From Polytrichum commune (taxonomy: Eukaryota > Streptophyta > Polytrichopsida > Polytrichales > Polytrichaceae): DNA of 64,000 bases. The position numbers were made by a program, and so were the translations under genes. Position 1 is the stretch's first letter, and each line of letters begins with the position of its first letter. Positions 42,839 to 63,095 of the stretch are shown here, piece after piece. The notes beneath the pieces were generated by a model, which was not told where the DNA came from, did not search any database, and worked only from the letters and a program-made list of their open reading frames with translations. Location of the stretch: NCBI GenBank assembly GCA_950295325.1, contig OX485807.1, forward strand, positions 9,267,001-9,331,000, read 5' to 3'.

Positions 42839-43055
42839 TTAAACATTATGGGACTTTTGGGAGTCCCAAAATTGCAAAACATGTACATGTTGACCAAAAT
42901 TCTACGTGGGAACGTGAATGGGAACGTGCATGGGAACTTGCCAAAGATTATGTGCGTGTGTATGGGAACGGAGGAACACAGGGGGGGGGGGGAGGCACTC
43001 AATTGGGAACGTCAATACGAGGAGTATGGACGAGATTGGGGAACTTCTATGGGAA
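42839..43055. repeat. Left terminus: TIR and seven TGGGAAC-type subterminal repeats
   Basis: After the TIR, a small inverted pair GGGACTTTTGGGAGTCCC occurs at 42850-42867. Then copies of (T/G)GGGAAC lie between 42907 and 43056, mostly followed by GT or TT. A G12 run is near 42981. These are candidate transposase-binding sites. Confidence 0.7.
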
Positions 43056-43434
43056 CCATGGCACATGGCTGGGCCATAACGTTCGCCAATGTACACCACT
43101 TACACACGATATTCGTGATATTCATAAATAGTTGCCTGCGAACAAATTTTCATAGCACATACGTACAGTGTCCCACCGCACATGTTTGAAATTGCGGGGA
43201 AGTTAGGGTTAGGGTCCCTACATTGAGGTCTGAAAATCCATACATTAATGGGACCACACCATGCATGATGATATGACATTGGTTGAAATTTGCACATATA
43301 GCAATTAAGGCCGTATCGACAAAAAAATGAGATGTTTGGTTCCAAACGTACTGCCCTATCACCTACCGTAGATCACTAGGGTCTTGACACTGGCTCATCT
43401 AATCCCGTATCACCTTCAATTCCAGTGTCTCTGA

Positions 43435-46400
43435 TCACCGGGATGCGCGTCCCCCAGATTTACGTCTACCACCTCCATGTCCACGGCCCCCTCGATGCCC
43501 ACTAGACTCCCCGTCGTCCCACCCACCCTCCCTGTTCCCACGCTCGGCTGTTGAACACCGTCGAAGATTATCTTTGGCAAAACCAATTTGCTCTGCTGGG
43601 ATAGTAACCTTTAATGGCTCCACATCTTCCTGTGCTGGCAGAGGCCAGGCTGCCAAAATGCAATCGATCGGCTGCCAGTCGGAAACGGAGTATTTCAAAT
43701 CTCGTTTCCACTTGAAATTTGGGTTTGAGTCCCAACCATTCCATTTCTTTGAAAGGTCCCTCGCGGTTGAAGTGGGAGTGAACCACTGTACAAGTATTTG
43801 ACGTGGATGATCTCCCGTGACCGCCAAGTTCGGTACAGACACAGCCCGGCATACCCAAATGGGTCTACCTATATCTTGTTCTTGGGGACGCAATATTAGC
43901 ATATGCCCCTCGTGCACATTCTCTGCGATGCGGAAAGCTGCTGCAGGACGAAGGTTTGCTGGACCAACATAATGGTCGTCCGGTTGGTGCTCTTCCCGAA
44001 GCTCTCCGTTCTGCAAGAAGGGATGTGCATCTGCTTCGACTCTACTTCGTGGCCAGAATCCCTCGCATAATGGCAGCCCAACAGTGTATACGTTTTTGAG
44101 GGGTGCATCTAATGCCTCCTTCACCCCTATCCAATATTGCAAAATATGCATGTGTGAACCCATATATGCTCCTGTCGTGTCATGGTCACATATTGATTGC
44201 CAATAGTCAATGAACCCTTGCAATCCCACAAGAACCTCCTCCAGCTTGGCCATACCTCGCGGTGGTGCAGGAAAGGGGTCCCCGGATGGAATACATGGCT
44301 CCCCTTTTATATTTGATTTCCACATCTTCACACCGTCTTTGGGCAACCACTCCCCATGCGTGCTTAGCACTTTGTATTGCATAACTGGGCAACCATCATC
44401 TCGGACATAGAATTTGAACTGTTGAGCCTTGGTGTGCCCAATGAGTTTCTCCTTACCACTTGGGATATGCTCACTAACGAATGTTCTCCAATCTGGAAGT
44501 TCCTCTATCATGTGTGGAATGACAGGAACCTTTTCCATGTCCATGTATGATTTCATAAGAAGGGGTATAGTGGGATAGTCGTGTTCACGCAGGTCCATAC
44601 TCCACCTTCCAAATGATGCATCGATGTCATCATGGGTGTGGCCAACCAATAGATAAGATACATGTACCTCCGTGAATATTGCTTTCGCCGTGAGCATAGA
44701 CCAAAATGCCTTTACAAACCTACACTTGTTGTCCTTCCAACAATTATCAAGCTGAACATGCAGAATGGGTGGAAGAGGAAGTGCAGGTGTGGGCTCCGTG
44801 GGTGGGGGTTGTAATCCTCCCAAACATACATCGCTCCCATTGAGAACAGCACAATACAGAGGTGCACGCCCAGAACCATGAAAAAGACGCTGGGATGATG
44901 ATATGGGAGGTTCCTCCAAATCGCGTAAAAGTCTCGCGAATGAGCCCACAATATGGTTGCAATCTCCAGGGTACATGTCCAGTGCATAGTGGGCATATCT
45001 CTCATCTCCATGTCCATGGGCCATCATGCCTGTTACAGAAAGTGGTAGCTTTGTAAACATATCGGTGTCTTTGTTCTTGGAAGCAAAGCAAGGCGATGTG
45101 GTTTTGCCATGGTCCATTTTGTCGTGGATAATCGTCAACACCTTTTGGAGATGCTCAATTGAAAGAGCCCTCATGCATCGGTAAGCGTTGCGAGCCGATT
45201 CTTGTTGTGCTAGGTGTTTTTCCAATTGTTTCGAAAACCCTGTGTGTGCGGCTGAACCTTTCAAATGTTGAAGTATAATTGCGGACAACGAATCACACTT
45301 CCCACAACGCGCAAAATTATCACCAATCCTCTTCTTTATGTAGTGCTTAAAGTAGGTATTTCGAATTTTGCTCAGAGTTGAAATAGATATTGGGAGCACT
45401 CCGCATTTGTCATTCACCTGCCCATATAGTATTAGTATAACATTAATAATACTTCACATGAACCATGAACCAAAGTGTATGAAATACGTTCATAATTGCC
45501 CCCTCGTGTCTATTCATTATACACAAACCCAACTCGATTGAATGTTTGATCTCCACTGTCAATGCGGGTAATTGGACTATACCAATTGCGTACCTCATTG
45601 ATTGTAACCAAGAACTTCTTCCATTTGGTTCCGCGAGGCAAGACCATTTCTACAACTCGTGTACCATTTGGCAATGTGCGAGCCTTGTGAGGCATCATAT
45701 CTGCTTTGTCTTCCAGTAGTGTCGAAAGTGTGGCTGTAGCTTGCTGGGTGGATGTTCGATTCCTTTTCTTATTTAGGTTCCCATGATCGCGTGGACGCAT
45801 ACCATTCTTGAATTCCGACCGGTTTCTGTAGAACGTCGTTTTTGAGACGGCAAATATGTGTCTCCATGCCTTTTCGCAGACATTGCGCCCACTCAAGGTG
45901 ACGACCTTCGTTGAACTTACAGGTAGTACATGTAATTGGCCATGGACTTCGAGTTGCTTAGCATGTCTCATCCGTGGCGAACAAGTGTAGAACTCCGTTC
46001 GTAGCGCAAGTGCCTCTTCCCTGGGAAAATATCTAGTGCACTCGCTATCACAACACACGCTAGCAGATAGTTGGTGGATGCTATTATTATTGAGAATCTG
46101 TGATTTCTTTGTCGATCTGTTCTGCGGCGTCGTGCGTGATGTTACATATGCCCTCTTCCCCTCTTTCTTCCGTCTTTCTAGCAACGTGTTTTGCACACGC
46201 AACCTGCGTGTGCTCACTAGGAGGTGGTGTGCAAGTGTATACCTCTGTTGGAAAACCCAATCAAGAGGCCATATTCGCAAGGAGAACATTCATCCCATGT
46301 CCATCATTCCCTCTAATGGCTCCATAATAAGCACACCAACATTGTCTATTCCTAGACATTTGTCTTTCACACAATCCATCGGATTGACGTTGCAGCAGAT

Positions 46401-46694
46401 TCCTTTTGCCACATTTTGTCCACTCACATTTACAAGCATCACAGGACTATGCAGCCATTCCTCCCTTCTCAGCCCGCTGCAGTCTACATCAATATCCTCT
46501 ATGCCACCATCAGTGTCGTCTTCCGTGAACACCGCTTCAGATAGTGAAGATCCCTGCATCATATTATCAGGTAAGTATGTTTGCCCGTACTCATGTCATA
46601 TACCACAATATGAAGTTACATCACATTGCAAAGTGGGGCAGTAACTGACCTCCTCGGAGCTCAAATGCTCTACTTCAGGTTGCTCCATTGCCAT
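43435..46694 (-). CDS. DUF7869-like transposase candidate, 934 aa, four exons, intact
   Basis: Minus-strand exons: 46694-46650, 46553-46428, 46244-45594 and 45417-43435. Junctions are GAG/GTCAGT, AAT/GTGAGT and GAG/GTACGC donors with GATGCAG, CCAACAG and GGGCAG acceptors. All introns (96, 183, 176 bp) are phase 0. The protein has an acidic start (1-57), a Cys-rich CCDSEC stretch, and GRNVCEKAWRHIFAVSKTTFYR typical of the family's N-terminal part. FARCGKCDSL follows (about 310-318). The RNase H-like core has HDKMDHGKTTSPCF (D373, D376), LHVQLDNCWKDNK (D498) and YLLVGHTHDDID (D537-D540), a plausible acidic catalytic set. The C-terminus is RGG-rich. These motifs match proteins I know as DUF7869; a transposase role is inferred from the RNase H-like layout and the position next to the left TIR. 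There are no internal stops. Confidence 0.8.
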
Positions 46695-48599
46695 GATAAC
46701 AACACATAACTTCATTAACCATATTATTGTGCCGCCCACATAAAGCTCTATTACATGAGAAGTATACACGAATATGGAAATCCATACCCAAATATTAAAG
46801 CACAACACTGGGCGTGGACATTCAGTAGTTTAGGCGAACATTGATCAACAATAACAAATACACATCATATTTTATTGACCATGATCAAACAAATACACAT
46901 CATATTTCAGTATGCCTTCATCATGGACCAAAGATATTGATGACACTTTCGTTGTTCAAGTGGGTGACATTTATAGAGGGGTCCCCACGAAATTATGTCC
47001 CTGTTTTCGGAATTCAATGGGGCTTTATCAATACTGATTACACTGCGACCTTGACAGTAGCAATTAAAGGAGCCCAATTGAATACAAGGATATTAGACAC
47101 TATGCTATACGCGGAGGTTAGTATCATTGGAACCTATTCAGAGCACCGATTATAGGTTTATGACAATTATGCGTTTATCCGTCTTGTAGATTGAAGATGT
47201 GTTCGAGGATGTAAATACCGGTGGCCGCCCTTCACAACACTTCATTATGTTAAAGGATGAGCTACACCTACACCTACACCTACACTTACACCTACACCTA
47301 CACCTATTAATGGATTAAATGATTTCCTCTCGGCGGAGAGGAACTTGGCGTGGAGATTCCTCTCGGCCGAGAGGAAACTTCTCTCCATGGTCTTTACACC
47401 CCGCGGGCGCGTGACTAGGACTAGCGGACCATGTCCACTTGCTGATCACATGGAACCATTCTCCACTTCAGTCTTCAAAGTTCTCATTTGGATTTAGGTT
47501 GGAGCGCAGTTTGGCGCCGTAACTCGGATATCGGTTCATCCCGCGTTGCCAGTTCTAATAACAAAAAATGGCCCAATTGGAGCTCTCATTCGGTCCCAGG
47601 GTACAGGGTGTCGGGTTTCCTCTCGGCCGAGAGGAAACTTGGTGGCAGTGTTCATGAGGAAAACATGGCTATGTCAGCTGGGCCGTACAACTGTACGGCT
47701 GCCACGTGGATGAAGTTGTACGGACAACTGATCGTAGGATCAACGGCAAAAGAAAACATACACTACTTGGACCGGCACCTGTAAAAGAGAGCATGTGTTG
47801 GGTTCTGAATGCGTGTAGTGTCGACAATGAGAGGTATGGAAATGCCTCAAGAGTGAGAGTCGGAGACGGTTGTGGGTATGGGCCTTATATAGTAGATGGG
47901 AGATTGGTGGTTTTGAAATAGACGGGATCCTCTCTTGTACGGAGAATCAGCAGTTGAGGAGGTGTAGAGAGAATGATTGTTTGGCGAGTAGATGTGCTTT
48001 CTAGTTGATAGTACATATAATGTACATTCTACACTACCTTCCATTGAATGCCACTGATCTCAAAATTTCGAATTTAGTGTACATATATCCTCTCCAATGT
48101 GTTCATTGATTGTTGATCGTGGTCTAGTGTGATGAACTCTCAATCCCACTGTAGTCCAATCTCCTATAAACATGTGTCATTATGGTATTTGTTCTTTCAC
48201 AATCACCGAACCACGCACCGACCAGTGGGCCATGGTGGCAGCATGCAATATTTAGTAAATGTCAAAAAATTTACCCTAAACCCTTAACCAAAAAAACGGC
48301 AAGATGAACCATCATTAATATCCATGGGCCCACTATATAATTGCACTCAAAACAATGTGCCATTGATATATGAATTTAAGACATTAAAAGGTAGAGTGGA
48401 AAAAAAGGCTAACCCCAAACCCCAAACCGTCTTGGAGTGTGAAACTAAACATTGTTGTAACTTAATATCATGTCACACTTGTCTGTAGCAAATATGATCT
48501 AGTGGGTGACTTGTGGCGAATTCCAAAAATGTGGGGTCAATTGCCATTTCGTAGATGCTTCCATGTTAAGTTCTTTGTTTGTTAAAATTATGAAAACAA
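46695..48599. other. Central spacer of the giant element, left part
   Basis: Presumed promoter side of the DUF7869 gene. It contains an (ACACCT)n-like simple repeat at about 47262-47308 and three palindromes of the CCTCTCG/CGAGAGG family (47324, 47357, 47616). An open stretch at 47488-47784 crosses a palindrome and has no recognisable similarity, so I do not call it. Confidence 0.45.
47324..47637. repeat. Palindrome family, cluster 1 (three copies)
   Basis: Copies at 47324-47343 (centre CGGCGG), 47357-47376 and 47616-47637 (centre CGGCCG) have the form TTCCTCTCG then CGAGAGGAA. The outer AC/GT of later clusters is replaced by A/T-rich bases here. Confidence 0.85.
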
Positions 48600-49130
48600 T
48601 CACTACTCTGATTACCCAAATTGGTGAGGGATGGCTAATAGTGTTGTTGGGAAAGTACACTAAATAGGATGTTGAGTGTTTAATACACTAAATGAGAACA
48701 AATACACTCAATATCAATAACCATTAGTGTTAGTAAAGATATGGGAAAAATTGGGATATAATAAGGGATGTGGTAGTCGGGAAGAAAGCGGTACATTTAT
48801 GTCCAGCACTAATGGTTAAAGAATTGAAAATTAGTTTTGAGCAAGGTAGGGTGGTGGTAGCAAACCCCAAATATAATCAAACACTAAATATCTTATTTAG
48901 TGTAGTGAAGGTGATACTAAAGTTCTTTATGCTAGGGATTTAGTGGCAGCAAAAGACCTAGGAAGCATTGGTCATCGTGAGTAATATTTATAACATCATT
49001 ATTCATTTAAAGTATTGGCACTATTCGTTGACAAGCAATGTGTTTGCATACGAAATGTTTAATCACACTACTAGCACCTTAGAGCACGCACTAATTTTCT
49101 CAAAATGAGCATGTATTTGTGAATTCAAAG
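48600..49130 (+). repeat. Dispersed repeat, copy 2, nested in the giant element
   Basis: Same repeat as 20990-21370, interrupted here by the 245-bp CACTA-like MITE at 48658-48902. It shows that other elements have inserted into the giant transposon. Confidence 0.65.
48658..48902. mobile_element. CACTA-like MITE, 245 bp, nested, with empty-site match
   Basis: It begins CACTAAATAGGAT and ends ATCTTATTTAGTG. It is flanked by TA on each side. The related repeat at 21090-21115 reads straight through this point (GGGAAATTAATGAAGG), which supports an insertion with a TA-type duplication. Confidence 0.65.
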
Positions 49131-51850
49131 ATGTATGTGGAGTTTTAGAATGAGTCTTCGTATTATTATAAGATAGCTATGTCCAATTTTGGTTTCTTAT
49201 CTTAATCAAACACCTAGTATATGTCAGTGATATGTGGTTTGATGTGGCTCCAAGAATGGATAATAAAAAGGAGCTTTATTTTAAGGTATGAGGAGCCAAA
49301 AAGCTCGCGATGGGACTAGAGGTACATGTTGTCAAAAAGGCTAATTGTGTGGAGTACTAAAGCACAAGGGCGTCTACGAGATAGCGGCTGATATCAACTT
49401 TATGATCCACTCGGAAAAAGACTTGAGAGTACTATGATCTAAAATAGGGACAACGGTCAAGATCATCATATGGTCTCCAAAAATGATTAAGAAATGGCTA
49501 TATCATGACTTGGATAAGGTAACCACTTGTTTCATATCCAACGATAAGTGGGTGCAGAGGTAAAAAATGTCCATATAAGAAATGCTTAACTTAGCTCACT
49601 TACTTATTGACTTTATTAGTTTTTTCGGTAGCTATGATCTCATAATTGACATGATTAAGTATGCCTCCTTGATGCCTTTGACCTTGAAATGTGAGTGTAT
49701 CTAATCCAGTATAACACCACAATGGGCCCACAATATATGTGTGAAATAGTGGAAGGGCAAGATTTAAATGAGATGCATGAAAATGGGAAAATGTTTAATG
49801 CACAGCCACATTTTAAGAACTAAAAAGAAAAGAGGATGTGGACCCAAGCAATGGGAATCATTACTAACCAACTAGATGATGGTCTCCATAACATTATTTA
49901 GTTGTTATTGAGTGTTCCGTTATAATAATAGTAGGGCTCGGGGCAATCACACCCCCCTTCCATTTCGTTATCGCGTGCGTTTACCGGGTATGCAACTCCC
50001 GTATTATGTGGCCCTGATTATAATCACTTACAATGCGTTTTATTCCAATATTGAGTGATGCAATTTGTTTTAATGTAGGAACCCCTTGTGGCCCTTCTAA
50101 CAGAGGATCCAAAAATGTAATTATATGTATGAAACAAATATGTTTTGAAGCATATGATTGCATTGAAAACCTGATTATTTGGTTTTTTTGATACATGTAC
50201 CATAGGTCAAACTACCCAATTTTTTGGAATTTTTGATAAAATTTCAACATTGTGAACGACTTATAATTTTCATGGCAGGCAACTAGTCGTGGTTTATAAT
50301 TCTAATTGGAGGCAACTATTCGGGTGGATTTTTAGAATTATGTGTAGGCAGCTTTTTTCTCATCTCATTTTATTTAATTTGGTCTTCAAAAAAATGAGGG
50401 GTTGATATAAAACTATTCCCAGTAGGCAATGTTGAGAAGGCATAATTTCAAGCATCACATCCGATTTAATGAATTCTTCAAAACCAAGTGCAGTCTCCAT
50501 GTAACAGGTGAGGCTATATTTACAACGTTACAACATTACACCATGATTATAGAGACATGGATGCATTAATGATCAAAGTCGGTTCAACATTTTCCCACTC
50601 ACAACGTGAACTTTGGCCCAAATATTATGAGTTGCATGGCATGGATTTTAAAAGAGACATGTGCCCAACTTGGAGGTCATGTCATCATAATCAAAGTGTT
50701 GTAAGGTCAAGGTTTTGTGTGCCAAAAAAAACCATGTGTTACAACTTAATGTATTTCAAGTACCTTCTCTTGCATATTTATCATATGTTCTTAAAGAAAA
50801 TATGTTTTGTGTGTTTATTATAGTCAAATTTCATGAAACAATTTGGCACGCATATGGAAGATTTACTCATTACTAGTAATGCTTCTTATTTGAATGAAAT
50901 ACTCATGTTTTATAAAGATAGGTTGAGATAATTTGAATGAATTGCTCATGTTTTATAAAGGCAATAATTTGAAGGGTTGCTTGTATTTCATAGGGAAGGG
51001 TAACTCTAAATTTTCCCTTTCAAAATGAAGGGTTACCTCAAAAACTGCCTTTCATGTATATATTGAAGTTTTTGTTGAAAGTGCACATTACCATGTTTAT
51101 CATTTAAGCGACGTTGAAAACTATAAAACAAGTAAGACCAAAGAACACACATGGTTAAAAGATAGAACTATTTCATTAATGAAACATGGATGTTTGAGTA
51201 CAATAAAACGGTAATGACATCTCAACATATTGATATCAATGATAATCTCGAGGACAACAAGAAAGCAGTAGTATAAAGATGTAAGAAACTCACAATATAA
51301 ATCACGTTTGAAATCTTTTATGAATCATTCATGCACCTCTCCCAAATATCTTTAAAATCAAGAGACTCCATAGGAATCTTCGTCATACTCCATTTTGAAG
51401 GGTTTAATAAAAATCACCCCTTCTTTTTTGAAGGGTTGCAAATTTTTTTTGAAGGGACTGTGAAGTTCTGGACCCCAAGAAAAGGGTAATAGCCATTCAA
51501 TTTTTGTCCCTGCTTTATATCATGGTGCTTGCATAATAATTTATCTATCACTTAACAGACGAGGAATTGCCAAAGCGCAAGAAAATAAAATTGTAAGACA
51601 AGATCCATGTTCAGGGGTCTCTTTTGAGGTATGAAGCCCGCCTTTACATAAATATATATAGGTTTGCCTATGTGCCCCCCCCCCGGTCCAAACGTACTCT
51701 ATCGACACATGTCGATTGGAGCTCCCCTACAAGGGCTATTAGTCGGTATAGAGGGTCATCATGGGTAGGTGAGATGATCTTGGCCGTTTATAATGACGGC
51801 TCAATGTAGACCGTCGATGCGGGCCACTATCCGAGGCCCCCGGGTGGAGT
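49131..51850. other. Central spacer of the giant element, right part
   Basis: Dispersed-repeat sequence (49170-49600, shared with 7230-7740 and 42360-42740) and TTTGAAGGGTT-rich sequence (50960-51440). From about 51660 it becomes GC-rich, with a C11 run at 51676. No gene is recognised. Confidence 0.4.
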
Positions 51851-52088
51851 CCCTTCGGAATCATTGCGCCTTTTCATTTGTGGCCGCACCTCCTCCCTCC
51901 CCTCCTCCCTCCCTCCCTCACTCCAACTCTCTCCCTCTCTTTTCCTCGCATTTCCTCACATTTCCTCGCATTGCCTCACATTTCCTCGCCTCATTGCATT
52001 TCCACGCAATCTCCCACTACTCCAGGTTTGGGCGCGGAGGTGCATATCCAGCGGCTTTGGAAATCTTCGGCGCGCCTCACAACTTCTG
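51600..52088 (+). promoter_or_regulatory. Proposed promoter and leader exon of the ParB/FCP1-like gene
   Basis: GC-rich sequence is followed by a CT-rich leader (CTCCCTCCC repeats at about 51890-51935, then repeated TTTCCTCGCA/TTTCCTCACA at 51942-51985). It ends CTTCTG before a strong donor GTGAGT at 52089. The first coding exon starts after TTGCAG at 55045, so a non-coding leader exon with a 2.96-kb intron is likely. No transcript evidence is available. Confidence 0.4.
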
Positions 52089-52294
52089 GTGAGTATTCCA
52101 CCACTACACCAGATTTTGCTTAAAACTTCATGTTTGAATGTTGGTATGGAGCGATTTGATGCACATTCTTTGAGTCATTATCAGTATGTTTGTATGTGCT
52201 TTCAATCTGTTGGTCTTGTGCGATTTCTATGAACATATGAAAATAACTGGTGCATCTCTCAAGTTAGATTTGTGCTCTCTCCACTTAGAGTATG

Positions 52295-52780
52295 TGTTTG
52301 AGTTATCTATCAGGTTTGAATGTGTTGAGTTGTTGAGTTGTTGGGTTGAATGTGTTGAGTTATCTATCAGGGTTGAATGTGTTGAGTTGTGTTGAGTTGT
52401 TGAATGTGTTGAGTTATCTATCAGGTTTGAATGTGTTGAGTTGTTGAAAGTGTTGAGTTGTTGAGTTGTTGGGTTGAATGTGTTGAGTTATCTATCAGGG
52501 TTGAATGTGTTGAGTTGTCGAATGTGTTGAGTTATCTATCAGGTTTGAATGTGTTGAGTTGTTGAAAGTGTTGAGTTGTTGAGTTGTTGGGTTGAATGTG
52601 TTGAGTTATCTATCAGGGTTGAATGTGTTGAGTTGTGTTGAGTTGTTGAATGTGTTGAGTTATCTATCAGGGTTGAATGTGTTGAGTTGTGTTGAGTTGT
52701 TGAATGTGTTGAGTTATCTATCAAGGTTGAATGTGTTGAGTTGTGTTGAGTTGTTGAATGTGTTGAGTTGTTAGTTGGGG
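52295..52780. repeat. Minisatellite, TTGAATGTGTTGAGTT-based, about 480 bp
   Basis: The modules TTGAATGTGTTGAGTTATCTATCAGG and TTGAATGTGTTGAGTTGTGTTGAGTT alternate irregularly; the TTATCTATCA word recurs about eight times. Diverged units continue to about 52915. Open frames on both strands here are a by-product of the repeat. Confidence 0.9.
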
Positions 52781-53662: not shown

Positions 53663-54916
53663 ACTTCCTCTCGGGCGAGAGGAAGATTTCCTTGGGGGTT
53701 CGCGTTTTCAGAGCCCCCCACCCTCACACTCACACTTGAGGAGGGGGAAAACTTCCTCTCGCTCGAGAGGAAGTTCTCCCCTGGGCTCTCATTTTAGGAG
53801 CCCTCCACACCCTCACACTCACACTTGAGAGTGAGAACTTCCTCTCGCTCGAGAGGAAGTTCTCCCCTGGGCTCTCATTTTCAAGAGGCCCCCACACCCT
53901 CACACTCACACTTGAGAGTGAAAACTTCCTCTCGCTCGAGAGGAAGTTCTCCCCTGGGCTCTCATTTTAGGAGCCCTCCACACCCTCACACACCCTCACA
54001 CACTGACGTCTTCCCTGCGCTCTCATTTTAAGAGCCCTCCCCACCCTCACACACACTGACGTCTCCCTAGCCTACAATCCTTTTTCAAATATTCAAACAT
54101 GTCAATTCTTCGAGTCATTTCTTTGTCAATATCGTCATCCTTGCACCAGGCAGAAGCACGTTTCAAATCAAGCTCATTGATGATCACATTACAAAGAACT
54201 GGATACTTGGAACCAAGATGTGTAATTACCGACAATCTTGAGTATGTGCTATGATGAATGCTTAATAGAGAAGTTTTTGATGGTGTTTGCGACTAAAATT
54301 ACTTTGGTATGCAAACGTCTTCATACATTATTAATCGATTTTGGTGATTTGTGGTTGGAAAATGGTAGGTTCGTTATCTCAGACAGTTTCGCGAGTTGCG
54401 ACTCCCTTGCCTTGAATTCAACCCTCTTTGCAAGGTACAAGTTCGACTTCAAGAAAATGATAAAGAAAAAGAGTGTCATTGTTATGTGATGTTTGTTCAT
54501 CAATCCCTACTCATGGGGAGCGTGGGGACTGGTTAATGTTTAATTAGTCTATATTATGTTAGTAAATCAAATATGGATGAATGGATGCATGTCTTTTATT
54601 TTGTTTTTGGTTTCCATCAATTTAGAATGATGTGGGTTAGGTATTCGATGACAAACCCCTATCAACATGACAGGAGGAAAGGGAAAACTTCCTCTCGAGC
54701 GAGAGGAAGTATTCCCCTGCGCTCTCATTTTAAGAGCCCCTCCCAACCCTCACACGCAGACTTGAGGAGAGGGAAAACTTCCTCTTGACCGAGAGGAAGT
54801 TTTCCCTTGCACACTCATCTTATTAGCCCTCTCCTAGCCCTCACTCCCTAGATTTCAATCCACCCCTATCAACATACAGCATAAAAGGGAAAACTTCCTC
54901 TCGACCGAGAGGAAGT
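53663..54916. repeat. Palindrome family, clusters 2 and 3 (seven copies) in a tandem context
   Basis: Copies start at 53663, 53751, 53837, 53924, 54687, 54777 and 54893. Arms are ACTTCCTCTCG and CGAGAGGAAGT with centres GG, CT, CT, CT, AG, AC (with a C-to-T change in the arm) and AC. Copies 53751-53947 sit in an 86-87-bp tandem unit that also holds GGGCTCTCATTTT, AGGAGCCC and CCACACCCTCACACTCACACTTGAG. Confidence 0.88.
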
Positions 54917-55050
54917 TTTCCCTTGCACACTCATCCGTCACATTATGTAAACCCTATTTATCAACGTACGCGATAGCCTCAAGGTGCAAGCTCTCTCAAG
55001 CTTGCTTTATTCCACAAATACTAACCATTTCAATTTGTCTTGCAGGTGAC

Positions 55051-56484
55051 ATGGACAAGGAAGTGCTATGGACAGACCTTGTTGGGACAATGGAAATAGG
55101 GCAGAAGGGTGTCTATTGGGAATTAAAAGACACTCACTTGAGACACTGGTCAATTCAGGTACACAGGAGGAATAAGGAATCTCCGTTAAAACTAACCCTC
55201 GCATACAGGGTAGGAAAAAATTGGATTTCAAACCCAGAAAACGCAATAATCCTGGCATCGGTCGGCGATCGCGACCAGCTTAATGTAACGGTGCTCGAAG
55301 GACTCGAAGAACGCACTTTGTCCATCGACTGTAAAAGGCATAGATTTCACCTGGAGCCATTCACCCAATCAATCGAAATGCTTCCTCCTGCGGATAAAGA
55401 AGACATGGAGAGAGTGATGGTCTCCGGTGTATCGAAGAAGGCAATTAACTTCCTTCTTGAAGCAATAGGTGATATCAATTCGAGAGAGGCGAACGAAATG
55501 GAGGCTCTGAGGACGCAAAAGAAGAAACAAGCGGAGACACTTCTGAAATCTAGGACTGATGATGAGGGGAGTAAGAAGAAGAAACAAAAGAAGCAGAAAC
55601 CCGGCGATCAAGATGTTGAAGGAACAAGAGAGGTGGCAAAGAAACCCAAGAAGGCTTCTGGTGAACTCGTTCCCTTGGCGACGCCTACAAACGCGACGCC
55701 AATTATGCAGAGCCATCCCCAAGAGACATCAAGTGCAAGGAAACCTCCGGCCTCAAAGAAGACTACTGATGAGGAGCGGAAGACAAAACCTAAGAAGGCG
55801 AAGGCTGCGGATGCATCGGAAGAAACTCCACTAGTGCTCACCGCAACAGAGAGGGGCAGAGTCATCGCACATGGCGAGGAACCAAGTCTGGAAGAAGCTG
55901 CAGCGGACCGCAAGAAATTCGTCAAATTATTTGGACACTTATATCCTTTCGGTATCGATAAAGTTTTTCATGTCCACATAAAGAAGATGTTGAGCGCAAA
56001 GTCGTATCATATTACTCGCCCATTGGATGATGTCGGAGTAGCTCTCATGAAGAAATACCTTATACAGACCCCACCAGCGTGGTCCCATCACAATCTATGT
56101 CTCATGCCGAAACTCAATAAGGGTGAGACATAGAGAGAAGGAATGACCTGGGACGATATCAAGGACGGCAATTTTGTGATCATCAACGGTCAACACAGCG
56201 TGGCTGCTTCGAGGCAGATTATAGGGCACAAGGATACAGATCAAGTACTCAAGGATAAATTGAAGATTTGGCCTTGTACGATTGTTTGGACCAATGATCC
56301 AAGCATGACAGTTCGTCTCTCCTATACTCTAAACAACTCTAATTCTTTCAACAAGTTCACTCCTACTTGGACAACACAAATTATGTACTGTCGTAGGGTG
56401 TGGGTGAAACTAGGGAGGCCCTTAAAACAACGGATCAACGCTGTGGGAACAACTATAGACCCCAAAATAAAGGAGGCATGGAGA
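55051..56484 (+). pseudogene. Exon with unknown N-terminal domain, Lys-rich linker and ParB-like motif
   Basis: The ATG at 55051 sits five bases after a TTGCAG acceptor. Residues 1-150 form an unrecognised, mixed-strand domain (WTDLVGTMEIGQKGVYWEL onward). Residues 150-290 are Lys/Glu/Pro-rich with KKKKQKKQK, likely disordered and nuclear. Then comes KFVKLFGHLYPFGIDKVF and, after a TAG at 56131-56133, FVIINGQHSVAAS (56176-56214). The latter resembles the GQHR-type signature of ParB/sulfiredoxin-fold domains with Ser in place of Arg. The stop falls between helix-rich LMKKYLIQTPPAWSHH and the ParB-like part, which is in the same frame. Confidence 0.55.
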
Positions 56485-56548
56485 GTAAGTTTTCATACAC
56501 CCACTCCCATTCCAACTTTTATTTTTGCACTCCCACATGCAGACTCCT

Positions 56549-56664
56549 CTCCCATCCCTCAATCAGGGATCAAGGGCTTGAGGGAGGTGAGGGAACTTCC
56601 TCTCGGCCGAGAGGAAGTTCTCTCACCTCCCTCAAGCCCTTGATCCCTGATTGAGGGATGGGAG
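56549..56664. repeat. Near-perfect 116-bp palindrome in intron
   Basis: Arms 56549-56606 and 56607-56664 are reverse complements with one mismatch that I can see (CCC versus TCT context beside the core). It contains the family palindrome at its centre, then GTGAGG/CCTCAC-type, CTCCCTCAAGCCCTTGATCC and CTGATTGAGGGATGGGAG segments. Confidence 0.9.
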
Positions 56665-56674
56665 GATTCATGGA

Positions 56675-56858
56675 ACTTCCTCTCGGCCGAGAGGAAGTTC
56701 CCTCGCCTCCCTCAATCCCTTGATCCCTGATTGAGGGATGAGAGGATTCATGGAACTTCCTCTCGGCCGAGAGGAAGTTCCCTCGCCTCCTTCAATCCCT
56801 TGATCCCTGATTGAGGGATGGGAGGATTCATGGAACTTCCTCTCGGCCGAGAGGAAGT
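56675..56858. repeat. Palindrome family, cluster 4, in 80-bp tandem repeats
   Basis: Together with the copy at 56595-56618, copies at 56675, 56755 and 56835 are identical with centre GC. Spacing is exactly 80 bp for these last two intervals and the first. The unit also carries CCTCAATCCCTTGATCCCTG and ATTGAGGGATGRGAGGATT. Confidence 0.92.
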
Positions 56859-56922
56859 TCCCTCGCCTCTACCCTCCATCCATAGTTACTTCAACTTGTG
56901 TTCTAACACTTCTCCATTGCAG

Positions 56923-58484
56923 AATTTCACGACAAGCATGGAGGCTTCATTGACCGTCATTGCTAAAGGGATCACCCACAATGACCTTAATGCCGAGCTG
57001 GCACTCATCATGGTAGATGATGAGACCTCGAGGATGTGGAAGAAGGTATTTCAAGGACACGAAAAAGAGACCCTTATTAACCCGGACAAACCAGGCTCCA
57101 CCTATTTAGAAGAATACCTAGACACGCAACAGAAACAACGAGCCCGCCACGACAAGAAAAAATCGGCAACACCATTCGAGGAGAAGCCGTATGTTTGTAA
57201 GCCATTGACCAGGGAAACTTTCAGGGTGATGGCAGGCCTAACACGGCCTGACTATCTTCTGTGTGCGAGACGTATCCTCGAGGTGAGGTCTGGCGAAGAG
57301 GTTCCTAGAGTCTCTCTCCGTGCCACGAAGAACCACGATGTCACGACCTTGAGGTCGTGGTGTAATTTTAGGAAGTGGAAGAATATTCTTCTGCAAGAAT
57401 TGTCAGCACACGACCCAAACAATCTTGGCATGTGGGGAAATGACTCGGAGAACAATGAATGCCTTAATAGATCTGTTTGGGACAAATTCAAGAGGGACCA
57501 TGGCATCACGAAGGCCAAATGGGTGAAGCTTTATTAGGTTGCAGATGATGGTTGGCTAAATAAGAAGCGGTTGCCGAACTACAAGAAACTGGACCCTACC
57601 CCGGCATGCTTGCGTTTGTTGCAAGAGTGGCTGCAAACACCGGTAGAAGAGAGTCAAGGACAAGTGATCACTCGATATGTAGATTATAATCCTCTGAAGC
57701 GGAAGTTGGTGATCCCTAATCAGGACAAGGTCGACACTGATTGGCTCTTGAAGTTCACCATTACAGGGGGCTTCATCGACTTTAGATTCATCCCGGGGTG
57801 TGTTGATCAGCCAGTATCATCGTCGGTAGTGGAGTCCTTGGTGAAGTATGTTGCGGACCCGGTCTTTTGTCTATTCAAACGTCACTTACCCCAATCGACG
57901 ACGAGCACATCAACCCCTTGCCTATTGTGGTTCCCATACACACTTTGGATGCAGCGGTGGTCACCCGCACTCCACCCACGGCCCCTTCACCGCCAGAACA
58001 TGTGCAAGCTCAGGTTCCATCGCCGCGTATGGCACTCTCGCCGACTGGCATCAAACAAGTGGCAAATTCTACAATTAGTGACATCATTCAAGAAGTTATC
58101 CAAGTGCCACATTCTGCGCAGCCTCCACTTGAGCCCTCACCTTTGGAGATTGTCGAGCTATCGCCGCAAGGTGTGGATGATGATGTTGCCAACGAAGAGG
58201 CTTCAACTCGAGCCGTGGAGTGCCCTCAAACAAAGCCACAGTCGCATGCGACGGCATCCACGAGTGCTGTCAATGTTATCCCATTGGACTCGTCGAATCC
58301 AGAAGCCACCATAAATGCTCCACAAGCTGTTAGGAGGTATTTGACACGTTGGCCACAAGGCGAGAAGGCTCCCCATCCAGTATTCAACAACGTTAGTTCC
58401 CAAGATTTCCGGACGACGCACAACAACCAAGACGATCAGAGACGGCGTGCCGAGCTTCTAAAAGTGGTGCCTTCACATGTCAAA
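56923..58484 (+). pseudogene. Exon with unknown domain and long disordered tail
   Basis: It starts after TTGCAG, in frame. The first 205 codons read a charged helical domain (MEASLTVIAKGITHNDLNAE onward, then GEEVPRVSLRATKNHDV and NNECLNRSVWDKFKRDHG) that I do not recognise. A TAG at 57535-57537 follows WVKLY, and VADDGWLNKKRLPNY continues in the same frame. Near 57865 the frame shifts by one. The rest is Pro/Ser/Thr/Gln-rich and looks disordered. It ends AAA before GTAAGT. Confidence 0.5.
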
Positions 58485-59005
58485 GTAAGTTTATTCCATC
58501 CAATGCATTCGTTAAATGGCACGTTAGTTTCGATTGACATATGTCTATTTCGACCTTTTCACCTCCTCATTTATTTAAATTCGCGTAGTTTTGGGTTCAG
58601 GCTCCACAACATTCGATAGCGCCTTTGGATGCGCCTCTACCAAAAGACGTCGTCTATGATAAGCTATTTGTTTACGATGACACATACCCAAAGATCAATA
58701 GACCTTGCCAAGTTTTCACAAGGGAGATGGGAATCGCGTGTGCTAAAAGACTAATGTATAAGTATCCCGAAGATCCTTCCCTAGGGTACTCTGAGCGATG
58801 GGAATTCAATCCAATACAGTACGAGGTATTGATCGTGGCCCATTTCTCCCTGTCGTTCGAGTTCGCCCATACCATACGTGGTTTGGAGGACTACACAATG
58901 AACTACTTAATGGTATAGTCCATCATGCCTAGGTTTGCGAGGTCATTCTATGTTTAATTTATATGTAGCACATGTCAGAAGCTCACAGTGGGTTCATGTC
59001 GGCAG

Positions 59006-59807
59006 GCGCCTGCTGCTACACCCAGTCGAAGGTTCATTGTGGTGTTCGATTTAAACGGCATATTTTGCCATTGTTCCCGACGTAACCCGGGTATGGTGAC
59101 TGTGCCCACTTGGATAACTTACGATAAAGCACCGGACAAACCTCCGGCCTTGGTAGGGCCCAAGGTTGTCCTACCTAGACTGGGATACAAGGTGTTTTGG
59201 TTGTGGATGTCCTCCATGTTCCATGTTTGCATATGGTCATCCATGAAAAAATCCACTGTAGACCTTGTGGTGGAGTATCTATTTGCCGGGGGCCCAAAAC
59301 CTGCATTAGTACTTGGCCAAGAGGATTGCACCTTGTTCAAGGACATGTGGAACAATGTCGTCATGAACCCTTTGAAGCCAGAAGCTCCTTTGTTTTTGAA
59401 AAGTTTACTCAACAAGTTTTGGTGGCCGCCTATATCCTTCGATTCTGGAAGGATCACAGCTGCACCCTCCAACACCATTCTAGTAGACGATTGCCCTTAC
59501 AAATCTGTTTGCAATCCGGACGAGTGGTATCTTTCCCAACCCATTCACATCCAATCGGGTGCAAGACGCAGACATGACAAAGGTCCTCCTTCCTTACTTT
59601 CAATCATTGTTCTACTCACCAATGTCCGACGCACGCGAATTTGTGGTCAGCCGTAGGTTTGGGCAACAACCTGTACGGCATAACGATGCAGTCAAGGTGG
59701 CAGTTTTGAAATCCAACGGGCTTGAAGAAACCGACTCGGAAATTGTAGAAAAGTTGCAAATCGATCGAATAGAAGTAGCAAAGAAATCAGTAGGATTGTA
59801 TGTCTAG
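59006..59807 (+). pseudogene. FCP1/NIF-like HAD phosphatase domain, frameshifted
   Basis: HAD motif I reads RRFIVVFDLNGIF (D at 59048), where the second Asp of the usual DxD is Asn (59054-59056). A VFWLWMSSMFHVCIWSSM stretch matches the family's (T/S)xW(T/S)S motif. Motif III reads NTILVDDCPYKSVCNP (59474-59520; DD at 59486-59491). A one-base gain near 59557 moves the C-terminal part (TKVLLPYFQSLFYSP, typical of FCP1-like domains) into the next frame. The family dephosphorylates phosphoserines such as those of the RNA polymerase II CTD; with Asn at the acid/base position catalysis is doubtful. An alternative to the proposed TCA/GTAGGA donor at 59790 is the stop at 59805-59807. Confidence 0.7.
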
Positions 59808-60243
59808 TAACATTGTATTTTATGGTATCTTCAGCTTCCTCCTGCTGGGTACACACCATCCAGTTCCACGCCATCAACTTTTGCGTGCCCCACTTCGGGG
59901 CTCTCATGCGGTCCAATAGAGGCAAAACAAGTTTCAGAGTCGCACAACCCAATGGAGGTTTCACCAGTGAAGAACAACTTGCACCATGTGCAATGGACTG
60001 ATGGATCAACTCTGGTAATTTATTATTGTGTCATTTATTATTATAGTGTCATTTATTGTTTCGACAACGTTATTGTGTAAAGGTTATTGTAATATCAAAC
60101 ACACATTTCATTACCAATTCAGGGTCATTAGCATAAGTATACTTGAATCTGTATAAATCCAGACTCGCTTGAACGTGCATGTGTACGCAATTTTGGTTCA
60201 GTTGCTACCGCATATGCGAGTTATGAAATCATGATAAGTTGCA

Positions 60244-60372
60244 AACATATATATGTATGGGTGTATATGTGTATATGTGTATGGGTGTATATCTGTATAT
60301 GTGTGTGTATATGTGTATGGGTGTATATGTGTATATGTGTATATGTGTATGGGTGTATATGTATGCACGAGT
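60244..60372. repeat. GTGTATATG-type minisatellite in intron
   Basis: Imperfect repeats of TGTGTATATGTGTATGGGTG lie in the intron before the last exon of the ParB/FCP1-like gene. Their translation gives a false in-frame extension of the downstream open frame. Confidence 0.85.
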
Positions 60373-60423
60373 GTATGTAAATTAGTAAGCCAAATAAATG
60401 CATGTCACTTTGTCACCGTGCAG

Positions 60424-60897
60424 GGTGTTGATCTCAATATGGAACCCGCAGTGGAAGATTGTGCATCCCCTTGTGAAACATTGCCCGTCCTGCGCTCTAT
60501 CTCTACACGCGACCACCAAATCTCCCTCATTGAATCAAGAGGCCTTAATTCAAGGGGTGTTCACATGTTACGTGCGGGATTGGCGAGCATTGGCAAAACT
60601 TATGACCCACAACCTATCACGACCACAGTGCCAACGATTCTTTTGAACGCGCAAGGTGCTGACTTCAATATGAAACCATTGGGACCGCCTTCCACCCGCG
60701 AGCATCAAATAGAGCTTATTGAGTCAAGAGGCCCTAATTCAAGAGGCGTCAATCTATTGCATGCGGGGTTGGCTGACCTCGCGACACACACAGAGCACGG
60801 TCCGGAAACGGTTAGCCTCCCCTTGGAAGGCCCAAAACACCACAATCAATGTGATGGACAGATGATTTGTCTGTACCCTAAATATGCTAGAAGTTAA
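60424..60897 (+). CDS. C-terminal exon with duplicated IESRGxNSRGV motif
   Basis: It starts after GTGCAG in frame and ends with TAA at 60895. The sequence contains two copies of a segment of about 60 residues: GVDLNMEP, then STRDHQISLIESRG and LNSRGVHMLRAGLA; and GADFNMKP, then STREHQIELIESRG and PNSRGVNLLHAGLA. The function is unknown. The frame is open and the repeats are well kept. It may be the end of the preceding gene or a small separate gene. Confidence 0.5.
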   Translation, partial: GVDLNMEPAVEDCASPCETLPVLRSISTRDHQISLIESRGLNSRGVHMLRAGLASIGKTYDPQPITTTVPTILLNAQGADFNMKPLGPPSTREHQIELIESRGPNSRGVNLLHAGLADLATHTEHGPETVSLPLEGPKHHNQCDGQMICLYPKYARS

Positions 60898-61365
60898 ACA
60901 ATCCCGTGACCAATTGTGCGAGCATTCATATGTGTACACAATATTTTGTGCAACACTCAATATATAAAAGTGGCCAGACACTCCCAATACCCAACGCATT
61001 GTCTTATATCAAGTCGGTTCACATGTCAACCATGCTCTCATTTTGCTTACCATATCCACATGCTTGTTTGCACCCAATGTATGGTTCTTGCTTGTCCTTC
61101 GTAAATCCATCATCGAGCACTCCCCCATGTATGGGTGGAACATGTAGTGCATAAACGATACGGCGGAAGCTCCATGTGAATGTTTTCGTTCTGTCTTGCA
61201 TAACTGCTTCATGGGAAGCTGCCCCTTCATGTAACCTATTTGTCCTGCCCAAACTCTTCTGTGATTGGACACAACGCGTAGGGCGCCTTTGTCTTGAATG
61301 CACACTCCCAGAGGAACAACCCATGTGTGCACCATGTAAATCCGCCCTTAAGGTATAGACACCCT

Positions 61366-61626
61366 ATAACCGATAACGATCCCATCACCGACAAGTAGAG
61401 TAGCTCATAAACGCGCATGGCTTTACTAGAAGTCGATATGAATATATATAAAACGCGAGGACAATATGACTGTGGAGGGGAAGTTGTTTCCGATAACGAT
61501 ATAACCGATAACGATCCCATCACCGACAAGTAGAGTAGCTCATAAACGCGCATGGCTTTACTAGAAGTCGATATGAATATATATAAAACGCGAGGACAAT
61601 ATGACTGTGGAGGGGAAGTTGTTTCC
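61366..61626 (+). promoter_or_regulatory. Tandem duplicate of a 135-bp promoter-like unit with TATA box
   Basis: Two consecutive copies (61366-61500 and from 61501) are almost identical. Each holds CCGATAACGAT, TCACCGACAAGTAGAG, ACGCGCATGG and AATATATATAAAACGCGAGG. The TATATATAAAA is a strong TATA-box match, present twice. It lies 260-530 bp upstream of the following gene. Confidence 0.65.
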
Positions 61627-61888
61627 CATAGATATTGTCGGTCGTGTGTGAAGCTATGTGTTGGTTATGGGCTTTGACCGACTTTCGCACAAAGAAATTT
61701 TACACAATCAATTTTGAAAAAAGGGTCATTATTCATGAACCTTATTTTCCTACGCACAAAAAATAACTCCTCCTTGATATTCCAAGATATGCTATGCTGA
61801 AATGCTTAAGTTTTCAGTTATAGGTATTTGTACCTCACATGTTGAAGCGTTATTCACACTTGTTCGTACTATTCAATGCCGTGTCAGG

Positions 61889-62791
61889 ATGCCCCTCCCA
61901 ACCCGGCCAGCTCCCCCCCCAGCTCCCCAGCCAACTGGGTTCGGGGAGGTCATTGCGAGAATGCAAACAGCTGAACTGGAACGCCCGTTAGGCCTCCCAA
62001 TGGAAAGGAGGAGTATGGACGACGAGTTTAACAACTTAGCTTCAGATATTGATGTGTGCATGGAACGGTTCATGCAACTACAATCATTTATGACCACTGC
62101 TTTAGATAGATATAAAGGATGCCGCTTGGTTGGAATGGATGCACACATGCTTGGGAGATTGGTGGTATACAGTGCCGATATAGGGCTCACCATCCCACAA
62201 GTGGAGGCACTCCAACAACGTCTCCCAGAGTTGCACTTAATAGAGAACGATATGTGGGAAGCTACTCAAGCAATCGAGCCCCATTTAGATGACTTACTCC
62301 GCCGTGATTCAGAAGACATGTTGAACCATGTCTATGACATCACGGATGAGAACCTCCCAATCACACCATTGTTGGAAGCCTGTCATATTGCCGATCCACA
62401 GAATGATGAAGGAGACCCAGTGGAACCCACAATGGGGGAGCGTAACATTGATTACGAGTTTTACTACTTAGCATCGCAGATCCATGACGTAACGCGCGAG
62501 TTTATGGGACTACAGAGGACCATGACAACTGCTCTACAGAGATATACGGGCACTCTTTTGCTCGGCGATCGCATACACCGCCTTTGTATGTTGGTGTTAG
62601 CGACAGAACACATTGGCTTTGACTCTCAGCAAAAAGCCTATCTTGGGAGCAAAATACCGGACTTGGCTTACATGGAGAAAGTTACATGGGAGCAATCTCG
62701 GGAAATCAAACCTCACTTGCCAAACATCTTTGAGTCCATGGCCAAACATGACTCCACAATTTGCGAAAGCCAAGGCACAAATGTAGAGTAA
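61889..62791 (+). CDS. 300-aa protein with two copies of an unknown helical domain
   Basis: The open frame starts at 61802, but I chose the ATG at 61889: it follows a GTGTCAG that could be a splice acceptor and begins a Pro-rich tail (MPLPTRPAPPPAPQP). After that tail, residues about 37-137 and 181-283 are diverged copies of one domain. MDDEFNNLASDIDVCMERFM corresponds to IDYEFYYLASQIHDVTREFM. MTTALDRYKGCRLVG corresponds to MTTALQRYTGTLLLG, and MWEATQAIEPHL to TWEQSREIKPHL. All predicted helix, no membrane segment. I recognise no family. It is the last gene before the right terminus and is intact. Confidence 0.6.
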   Translation: MPLPTRPAPPPAPQPTGFGEVIARMQTAELERPLGLPMERRSMDDEFNNLASDIDVCMERFMQLQSFMTTALDRYKGCRLVGMDAHMLGRLVVYSADIGLTIPQVEALQQRLPELHLIENDMWEATQAIEPHLDDLLRRDSEDMLNHVYDITDENLPITPLLEACHIADPQNDEGDPVEPTMGERNIDYEFYYLASQIHDVTREFMGLQRTMTTALQRYTGTLLLGDRIHRLCMLVLATEHIGFDSQQKAYLGSKIPDLAYMEKVTWEQSREIKPHLPNIFESMAKHDSTICESQGTNVE

Positions 62792-62981
62792 TTTAAGTTA
62801 TGGCATGTTACAGGCATTTATAGACAATATTCAATCGAGTGGACGCCTCCTAGCATAGAATTGGTGTTTCAATGAAGAGGATTGTGGGTGCAAACCTCCT
62901 GTTGTGTGACAGTCTATGCAAAAGCCCATTGGAAGCAAAGAGTATTTGTCTCGCATGGGCAGGTCCATCCAAAGTGTCCAC

Positions 62982-63095
62982 GAGTTCCCAATGAGTTCCC
63001 AATGAGTTCCCAATGAGTTCCCCATGAGTTCCCCATGAGTTCCCCACATACATCCCAGAAGTCCCAAAATCATCCTAAAGTCCCATAATGTTTAA
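62982..63095. repeat. Right terminus: six 11-bp GAGTTCCCMAT repeats and TIR
   Basis: GAGTTCCCAAT or GAGTTCCCCAT is repeated six times without interruption at 62982-63047. It is followed by CCCAGAAGTCCCAAAAT and the TIR ending GTCCCATAATGTTTAA at 63095. On the other strand the repeats read TGGGAAC, as at the left end. Confidence 0.8.

Follow-up and report, generated by a model that had tools for sequence, protein, structure and literature searches.

A giant TIR transposon, probably Sola (Sola1-like), present as a decayed copy in the moss Polytrichum commune

The window analysed here is a stretch of 64,000 nucleotides from Polytrichum commune. Positions 42830-63104 are occupied by an element of 20,275 bp, the features of which are collected in Table 1. 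It has precise ends, 28-bp terminal inverted repeats (TIRs), 4-bp target duplications, many dispersed copies in the host genome, empty sites for one of those copies and a conserved gene set. Two of its genes, P and Q, lie on the strand opposite to that of the putative transposase gene. Elements of this kind are usually 17-25 kb long in the host genome.

Table 1. Features of the element and its flanks (positions in the window).
Feature	Position	Strand	Basis
Left target-site duplication, AGAG	42826..42829	.	Identical 4-bp flanks, 27/27 copies
Left terminal inverted repeat, AACATCATATTAAACATTATGGGACTTT, 28 bp	42830..42857	+	End comparison of copies
Left subterminal TGGGAAC repeats	42907..43056	+	Motif counts
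Putative transposase gene (DUF7869 protein)	43435..46595	-	Pfam PF25273, E 6.4e-40
Palindrome pair 5' of the transposase gene, with the core TCGNNCGA at 47363 and 47623	47355..47638	.	
Array of six palindromes, mostly ACTTCCTCTCG-NN-CGAGAGGAAGT, 5' of gene P	53663..54916	.	
Gene P, ParB-like motif INGQHSVAAS	55051..56412	+	Motif only
Array of four palindromes, 80-bp period, between P and Q	56595..56858	.	
Gene Q, 5' part only	56938..57861	+	Comparison with other copies
Gene R, dullard/SCP-like HAD phosphatase homologue	58994..59639	+	Pfam PF03031, E 9.1e-6
Gene S, 337-aa open frame, family unknown	61778..62791	+	Open frame and family comparison
Right subterminal 11-bp tandem repeats, GAGTTCCCAAT	62982..63047	-	Tandem repeat and motif counts
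Right terminal inverted repeat, inward reading AACGCGATATTAAACATTATGGGACTTT	63077..63104	-	End comparison of copies
Right target-site duplication, AGAG	63105..63108	.	Identical 4-bp flanks

The earlier note on this DNA had placed the boundaries at 42839-63095. The shared ends of the copies correct this reading: in all 27 copies for which both ends were read, the common sequence begins 9 bp beyond the proposed boundary at either end, and the outermost ends of the window copy are AACATCATATTAAAC... on the left and ...TTTAATATCGCGTT on the right. Each of these 27 sites, from families A and B, carries a perfect, site-specific 4-bp duplication between flanks that differ, and at none does the duplication reach 5 bp. 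It is AGAG in the window and, for example, AAGG or CAAT elsewhere; in the sister families the two fully read copies, one from 502 and the other from 704, show TATA and TTTA. The TA and ATAT previously taken for target duplications lie inside the terminal repeat. The figure of 27 counts sites with both ends read and is not the total of genome matches; outside it stand C2:42.8M, the right end of which was not found by pattern, the copies with one end only (C7:15.5M, C1:2.26M, C7:31.51M, C7:31.76M and C1:61.4M) and L057, which was kept apart.

The two TIRs differ by three mismatches. The 19-bp inverted termini on which the first reading was built do occur exactly twice in the window (42839-42857 and 63077-63095), where a mean of 0.03 matches is expected with up to three mismatches allowed. 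The complementary subterminal repeats also hold: TGGGAAC has six copies in the left 300 bp but none in the right 300 bp, and GTTCCC none in the left 300 bp but six in the right, where the repeats form an 11-bp tandem array.

The variable 4-bp duplications (AGAG, AAGG, CAAT) rule out TA, ATAT and TTAA as the target duplication. We therefore rejected piggyBac, which duplicates TTAA, and Tc1/mariner, for which TA would be expected. The duplications made by hAT, CACTA and PIF/Harbinger elements are 8, 2-3 and 3 bp long, respectively. These three superfamilies and Mutator, with 7-12 bp in the accessible text of one account (PMC10741241), were rejected on a duplication of 4 bp and never 5, and on ten window ORFs in which no Pfam domain of these superfamilies appeared at E ≤ 1. 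KDZ was set aside in the same way, with no match to a KDZ model at E ≤ 1.

Counts of TIR patterns in the host genome gave 77 + 77 ends of the A/B/704 type, 333 + 343 sister-family ends and 19 + 21 for a third pattern, and the reversed-pattern controls for all three gave none. The window copy is collinear with three other A copies, with matches of more than 1 kb at 87-98%; each of the four A copies read from end to end has at least one broken gene. Joined flanks were searched for 15 sites. Clean empty sites were found for the copy at C6:38.47M only, and 13 sites either returned none or allowed no scoring. For C6:38.47M all 40 scored places span the junction, 35 of them covering the full 216 bp at 94-98%, and a single AATG is present in each of the five loci read. 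The joined flanks of C2:18.05M returned junction-spanning repeats at 76-84%, with ACAT instead of ATAT in both of those read. The host genome thus holds copies with shared ends, different flanks and empty sites, the kind of support asked for in the earlier note. A giant, gene-bearing TIR transposon is strongly supported; the ends as first placed and a TA/ATAT duplication are not. The statement that two gene sets of the element are found nowhere else in the window is also borne out, the 12 element ORFs used giving no match there at E ≤ 1e-3.

The left gene likely encodes the transposase. Its coding sequence falls into two main blocks, at about 46586-45591 and 45453-43435, with a presumed intron between them, and is interrupted in the window copy by one in-frame stop (46290-46292). 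DUF7869 is its sole Pfam match at E ≤ 1. Residues D111, D114, D159, D164, His272-Thr-His274, D276 and D278 are invariant in four divergent DUF7869 members, and D236 is kept in three of the four. The dN/dS ratio between the window copy (family A) and one B copy is 0.11-0.14. AlphaFold2 gave a mean pLDDT of 33.2 from the single sequence and 32.6 from a two-sequence alignment with the relative L096 described below; at such values the RNase H-like nature ascribed to the protein in the earlier note is, like the DDD triad, putative. PDB searches with the transposase, P and Q returned nothing better than E 0.045, and we found no mention of DUF7869 in the literature searched. This domain, to which no function is assigned, gains a likely role as a transposase; annotation that ignores it will count transposon genes as plant genes.

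Judged by motif only, gene P is ParB-like and its partner, gene Q, would be methyltransferase-like, with a degenerate motif. The window copy of P has one in-frame stop, and that of Q is missing about 2.04 kb, including the region of the methyltransferase-like motif; Q runs on to this motif (for example NLFGGLKPVAAAL) in the 704 copy and in two further copies of family A. No DPPY was seen in Q, and searches of Pfam, PHROGs, NCBIfam and the PDB gave no relevant ParB or methyltransferase profile for P and Q. Canonical N6/N4 methyltransferase matches (PF01555) number five in the host genome, three of them on the small contigs C10 and C12. Gene R has DLNG at motif I in place of DxDx and, in the window copy, a frame break near its end. 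PF03031 matches R of the sister families at E 1.6e-13 and 7.7e-10, and TIGR02251 matches R at E 4.2e-8, under the cut-off of that model; a PDB profile search reached a CTD small phosphatase-like protein at E 0.016, and a single-sequence PDB search gave no match at E ≤ 0.1. Gene S contains an internal duplication and is conserved in families A and B.

Genes P, Q and R are also present in distant families, with identities of 29, 30 and 31%, respectively. Between the window copy and one B copy, dN/dS is 0.10-0.15 for P, 0.10-0.16 for Q, 0.34 for R, 0.46 for S and 0.44 for the frame before S; by these ratios P, Q and R are under purifying selection between families. Within family A the values range from 0.11 to 1.14 on few changes, as expected for copies decaying after insertion.

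Each of the four families examined has its own palindromes of 22-24 bp, which share the core TCG-NN-CGA and differ in their arms. There are 12 in the window copy, and eight copies of the four families hold 12, 14, 15, 13, 5, 8, 15 and 32; 20 base shuffles per copy gave means of 0-0.05, and the 42.8 kb to the left of the element contain none. In A, 704 and 502, three of the four families, palindromes occupy matching positions 5' of the transposase gene, P and Q. Many form tandem arrays with periods of about 36-90 bp. Family-specific motif arrays in noncoding element DNA, as VANC-type anti-silencing requires, are thus present, with two of the 32 palindromes of the 502 copy inside a putative reading frame.

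We consider it probable that this is a giant cut-and-paste DNA transposon of a moss, in a decayed copy and most likely of the Sola (Sola1-like) superfamily. The 4-bp duplications, the DUF7869 protein with its conserved Asp residues, the moss-like host and the gene plan all point to this assignment. The element, whose TIR the earlier note could not assign to a known superfamily, is probably best filed in Sola by its features, as set by the published descriptions that were accessible, and not by sequence. Sola elements are described as having a DDD transposase and 4-bp duplications, as exceeding 15 kb in some cases and as present in P. patens (PMC10741241, in its accessible text). The moss element agrees with these Physcomitrella Sola/Sola1 elements in its duplications, DDD-type transposase candidate, TIR length (within the Sola range of 11-1124 bp), moss host and size. 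It is set apart, by description, by a usual length of 17-25 kb, by no fewer than three additional conserved genes and by ends that number in the hundreds within one genome. A 21.5 kb Sola1 of the brown alga Ectocarpus, Sola1-1_Ec32, carries ParB plus DNA methyltransferase, both encoded on the other strand from its transposase (PMC12477816, in its accessible text), and the moss element resembles it in giant size and, by motifs, in these opposite-strand functions. However, Sola1-1_Ec32 has one fused protein of 1104 residues where the moss element has two genes, and the dullard/SCP-like HAD gene is a further difference; palindrome arrays, present here, are not mentioned for it in that text.

In the mechanism that we envisage, the DUF7869 protein would be a DDD transposase; bound to the TIRs and to the subterminal repeats, it would cut at AAC/GTT, and insertion would be staggered by 4 bp. 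As the transposase gene, P, Q and R are broken or shortened in the window copy, this copy would rely on proteins from other copies. Less certainly, P and Q may be functions of the element and not captured cargo, and might recognize the family-specific TCG-NN-CGA palindromes 5' of its genes, so switching these on or keeping host silencing off. The divergent protein R may target the element's transcription or chromatin. The palindromes and accessory genes are thus a possible self-recognition or anti-silencing system. A fuller version, which we offer tentatively and regard as doubtful, is that the ParB-like protein and its methyltransferase-like partner of a giant moss Sola co-evolve with the palindromes and open or mark the element's own chromatin, letting elements of 17-25 kb reach hundreds of copies. 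It is quite conceivable, if short of probable, that P and Q are instead hitch-hikers and that the palindromes, as RNA hairpins or promoter repeats, have spread by tandem duplication, with no dedicated binding protein. The tandem arrays, the want of a ParB or methyltransferase protein match and the two 502 sites in a putative frame would suit such ordinary cargo; one core with different arms in four families, the corresponding places 5' of three genes and the low P and Q ratios between A and B argue against it.

Bacterial ParB-parS systems pair palindromic sites with a ParB protein. The moss element is alike in its palindromic sites and a protein with a ParB-like motif, and differs in being a plant nuclear transposon whose ParB homology is without profile support. 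VANDALs are Mutator-like elements. The word palindrome is absent from the paper on VANDAL21/VANC anti-silencing in Arabidopsis (PMC5735166). If self-recognition were true of the moss Sola, it would amount to a ParB-parS equivalent in a eukaryote, serving transposon anti-silencing and independent of VANC in origin. Giant multi-gene cut-and-paste elements have been thought to be limited by size, and here one plant genome has hundreds of ends; with conserved accessory genes and family-specific repeated sites, escape of large transposons from silencing becomes testable.

A cut-and-paste superfamily other than Sola, with DUF7869 marking a superfamily of its own that merely shares the 4-bp duplication length, seems unlikely to us. 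It draws on a comparison with Sola made by description and not by sequence, on accessible Sola1 descriptions that give no end sequence to set against AAC...GTT, on DUF7869 as the lone Pfam match and on its absence from the literature searched. Against it, the duplications, Asp positions, moss-like host and size fit the accessible descriptions of Sola/Sola1, and the opposite-strand ParB-like and methyltransferase-like genes fit those of Sola1. An integrated virus, a Polinton-like element or a segmental duplication, suggested by 17-25 kb with several genes and by giant-virus insertions reported for the moss P. patens in the accessible text of PMC11244446, is very improbable given exact ends, a variable 4-bp duplication at each of the 27 sites, empty sites, no match of ten window ORFs to polymerase B, capsid, packaging ATPase or integrase models at E ≤ 1 and no relative in IMG/VR. 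The giant KDZ and Starship elements are similar in size and gene load; the moss transposon differs from KDZ in matching none of its models, and from Starships, which use tyrosine recombinases, in its TIRs and 4-bp duplications.

Outside the host genome, no relatives were found in IMG/VR. The GTDB contigs contained one, L096, with a 963-residue DUF7869 reading frame; its source is a MAG labelled Synechococcales, which we take to carry eukaryotic contamination. A set of 14 control genomes gave no matches, a weak control because the members named for the same panel are bacteria and archaea. A family with a 692-residue DUF7869 protein has an end ATGGGG...; defined at that end only, it was kept out of the evidence for the TIR plan. 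The sequence itself points to a moss host through a LEAFY exon with GLDYLFDLYEQC, Asp at site 312 being the moss type, through the abundance of DUF7869 and through seven large contigs. Sites 312, 345 and 387 of LEAFY are described as important in the accessible text of PMC6588583.

The 19-bp terminal sequence that the earlier note described for a giant TIR transposon occurs exactly twice in the window, in inverted orientation (chance mean of 0.03 at up to three mismatches), and the accompanying TGGGAAC/GTTCCC subterminal repeats are real and side-specific. Searching the host genome with the terminal sequences returned many copies with shared exact ends and differing 4-bp flanks. The left 271 bp gave at least 41 listed matches, at least 20 spanning the full length with 93-100% identity (the window included), and the right 291 bp at least 50, with 40 candidates scored in each search. 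Both ends were read for 27 copies, 19 of family A (the window copy included) and eight of family B, which are about 90-91% identical in the left terminus. All 27 start with AACAT(C/G)ATATTAAAC and 26 end in TTTAATATCG(C/T)GTT, the exception being C3:52.8M (copies are named by contig and position in Mb), the last bases of which are TATCACCTT. Directly outside these ends every copy shows a perfect, site-specific direct repeat of 4 bp, never 5 bp. Given these common ends and repeats, we place the element and its duplication as listed in the table; the boundaries proposed earlier (42839-63095) are superseded, and the ATAT which had been read, as TA/ATAT, as the target duplication is internal to the element. 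We note a weak symmetric target preference, with A five bases before the duplication in 17 of 27 sites and T five bases after it in 15. The GC content of the element exceeds that of the rest of the window over most of the block, except at 48-52 kb.

Features of the window copy (family A) of the putative giant Sola-type element
Feature	Position	Strand	Remark
Element	42830-63104		AGAG target-site duplication
Putative transposase gene	43435-46595	minus	DUF7869
In-frame stop in transposase gene	46290-46292
Genes P and Q	54838-57865	plus
Genes R and S	58958-62791	plus
Gene S	61778-62791	plus

The terminus of the A, B and 704 families, AACNNNATATTAAACATTWYGGGAC, occurs 77+77 times in the genome and that of the sister family 502 occurs 333+343 times; the reversed-pattern control gave 0 in both cases. 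The 91 ends of 502 type listed on contig C1, taken from the first 100 places of the genome-wide listing for this terminus, include 36 adjacent inward-facing pairs with a median spacing of 17.4 kb, which is 12-20 kb in 21 of the 36 (among the matches listed). The 27 A and B copies are 4.5-73 kb long (median 23.3 kb), the longest probably containing later insertions. Compared with the window copy, three whole A copies are 87-98% identical in matches longer than 1 kb and two whole B copies about 72-86%. A 784-bp derivative (L057) has kept both ends, with TTTA on either side and the first terminal base altered, as read by eye. The host genome (G000), in which the window is C5:9267001-9331000, comprises 407.8 Mb in 64 contigs, seven large ones carrying about 406 Mb, and its LEAFY exon contains GLDYLFDLYEQC, which we take to fit a moss-type marker.

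Empty sites were sought in the genome by joining the flanks with one duplication for 15 of the 27 sites, in two queries. Matches to C6:38.47M took all 40 scored places of the eight-site query (the best 40 of 4663 candidates, mixed query), so that its outcome is informative for this copy only. All 40 cross the joined junction, and 35 match the full 216 bp at 94-98%. Junction-spanning empty sites, in which the earlier note had expected TA or ATAT, therefore do exist for C6:38.47M, but they carry a single AATG (five of five read). At G000:C6:38474500-38475611 (L016) this copy sits inside another abundant repeat, which is present at at least 40 places within the same limits. The second query held seven sites, the seventh incomplete, and included that of the window. 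For C2:18.05M it returned junction-spanning repeats at 76-84%; the two that were read both cross the junction, with ACAT against ATAT in the filled site and a 6-bp gap further right. At the other sites of this query, that of the window among them, the matches were limited to the site's own flanks or partial repeats, with no empty site.

The left gene encodes a DUF7869 protein (PF25273, 6.4e-40), the putative transposase. The window's transposase block is matched at 81-100% identity at at least 66 places in the genome (best 66 of 2321 candidates), and DUF7869 itself at at least 150 (best 150 of 1491). Residues D111, D114, D159, D164, His272-Thr-His274, D276 and D278 are common to four divergent members, and the Asp of LDN (236) is altered in one of the four. 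An uninterrupted 963-residue DUF7869 reading frame, 45% identical, lies on a contig assigned to a Synechococcales MAG (L096, CADCWO010000071.1), which is probably mis-binned eukaryotic (moss) DNA. A further DUF7869 family, of 692 residues, is represented by three copies (L074-L076) that are 99.7-99.8% identical over 1.9 kb up to their end, ATGGGGATATTAACTAAAATGAGAC; this end occurs 19+21 times in the genome, mostly unpaired, and the other end seems to differ. In a guide to plant TEs (PMC10741241), Sola elements are described as having a DDD transposase, 4-bp duplications and lengths of mostly 2-9 kb, with some above 15 kb, and as occurring in P. patens and apparently being uncommon in flowering plants; a land-plant review lists Physcomitrella Sola1 (PMC9033089). 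From these descriptions we file the element as a putative giant Sola-type transposon, an assignment by features rather than by sequence comparison with Sola. Among the matches listed in the open-licence literature on giant TIR elements, moss, and Sola with ParB or methyltransferase, no published account of this family was found, and DUF7869 is mentioned in no paper there.

The plus-strand genes lie in the order P, Q, R, followed in families A and B by S; one 704 copy and one 502 copy have P, Q and R in the same order, with identity down to about 30%. P carries INGQHSVAAS, which we take to resemble a ParB box, and the long frame of Q ends in NLFGGLKPVAAAL / NVFGGSKPIYAAM, which is similar to motif I of beta-class DNA methyltransferases. 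No DPPY was seen in Q, and searches of Pfam, PHROGs, NCBIfam and PDB confirmed neither the ParB nor the methyltransferase identity. Two small contigs of the assembly, C10 and C12, contain strong matches to N6/N4 DNA methyltransferases (best E values 9.6e-26 and 2.2e-16), which are perhaps bacterial contamination. R is a homologue of dullard/SCP-like HAD phosphatases (PF03031, 1.6e-13 and 7.7e-10 in sister families); it scores 4.2e-8 against TIGR02251, below the curated cut-off, and the three aligned sequences all have DLNG as motif I. Within S, residues ~70-174 and 204-312 form an internal duplication, 35-39% identical when cross-matched with another copy; database searches returned no convincing match for S.

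In the window copy the transposase gene is interrupted by a single in-frame stop, at a position where the 704 copy and three further A copies encode an amino acid, and P likewise contains one stop; Q has lost its end to a deletion of ~2.04 kb, and the reading frame of R is broken close to its end. The other fully read A copies, three in all, are likewise broken: stops or frame breaks, one or more per copy, affect the transposase, P or Q, and C6:38.47M is without R. Stop-free frames are present in the 704 copy and at many genomic places matching the transposase block or the 502-family P gene, the latter having at least 95 matches (best 95 of 1143 candidates), 63 of the 95 without stops. Since its own genes are broken and stop-free frames exist in other copies, the window copy could probably be mobilized only in trans.

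When the window is compared with one B copy, P and Q have dN/dS values (0.10-0.16) as low as those of the transposase (0.11-0.14); R has 0.34 and S 0.46. In the comparison with the 704 copy the values are 0.08 (the large transposase block), 0.25 (R) and 0.29 (the frame preceding S), the synonymous sites of P and Q being saturated; within family A they range from 0.11 to 1.14 on few changes. Synonymous divergence from the B copy is about 1.04-1.17 in P and Q and 0.26-0.54 in the transposase, R and S, a contrast that would fit an exchange of modules among families.

Palindromes with the core TCG-NN-CGA and 11-bp arms (up to two mismatches) were counted in eight copies of four families. In family A the window element has 12, and three further copies have 14, 15 and 13; the two B copies have five and eight, the 704 copy 15 and the 502 copy 32. 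Base shuffles, 20 per element, average 0-0.05, and the 42.8 kb of the window to the left of the element hold none. The core was chosen after inspecting the perfect palindromes of an earlier scan, which gave 7-27 per element, 0-2 in three shuffles of each and three in the 42.8 kb beyond the element. Each family has its own commonest arms: ACTTCCTCTCG in A, GGTTCCTCTCG in B, ACTTTCACTCG in 704 and (A/G/T)GTTTGGGTCG in 502. This pattern matches that described in PMC5735166 for VANC of VANDAL elements, which carry accessory proteins and in which family-specific sites form tandem arrays in non-coding element DNA. In A, 704 and 502 the palindromes lie 5' of the transposase, P and Q; in the 502 copy they also precede the next frame, and two of its 32 fall within a putative frame. 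In the fuller B copy they are found 5' of both the transposase and Q, and a single one lies 1.3 kb ahead of P.
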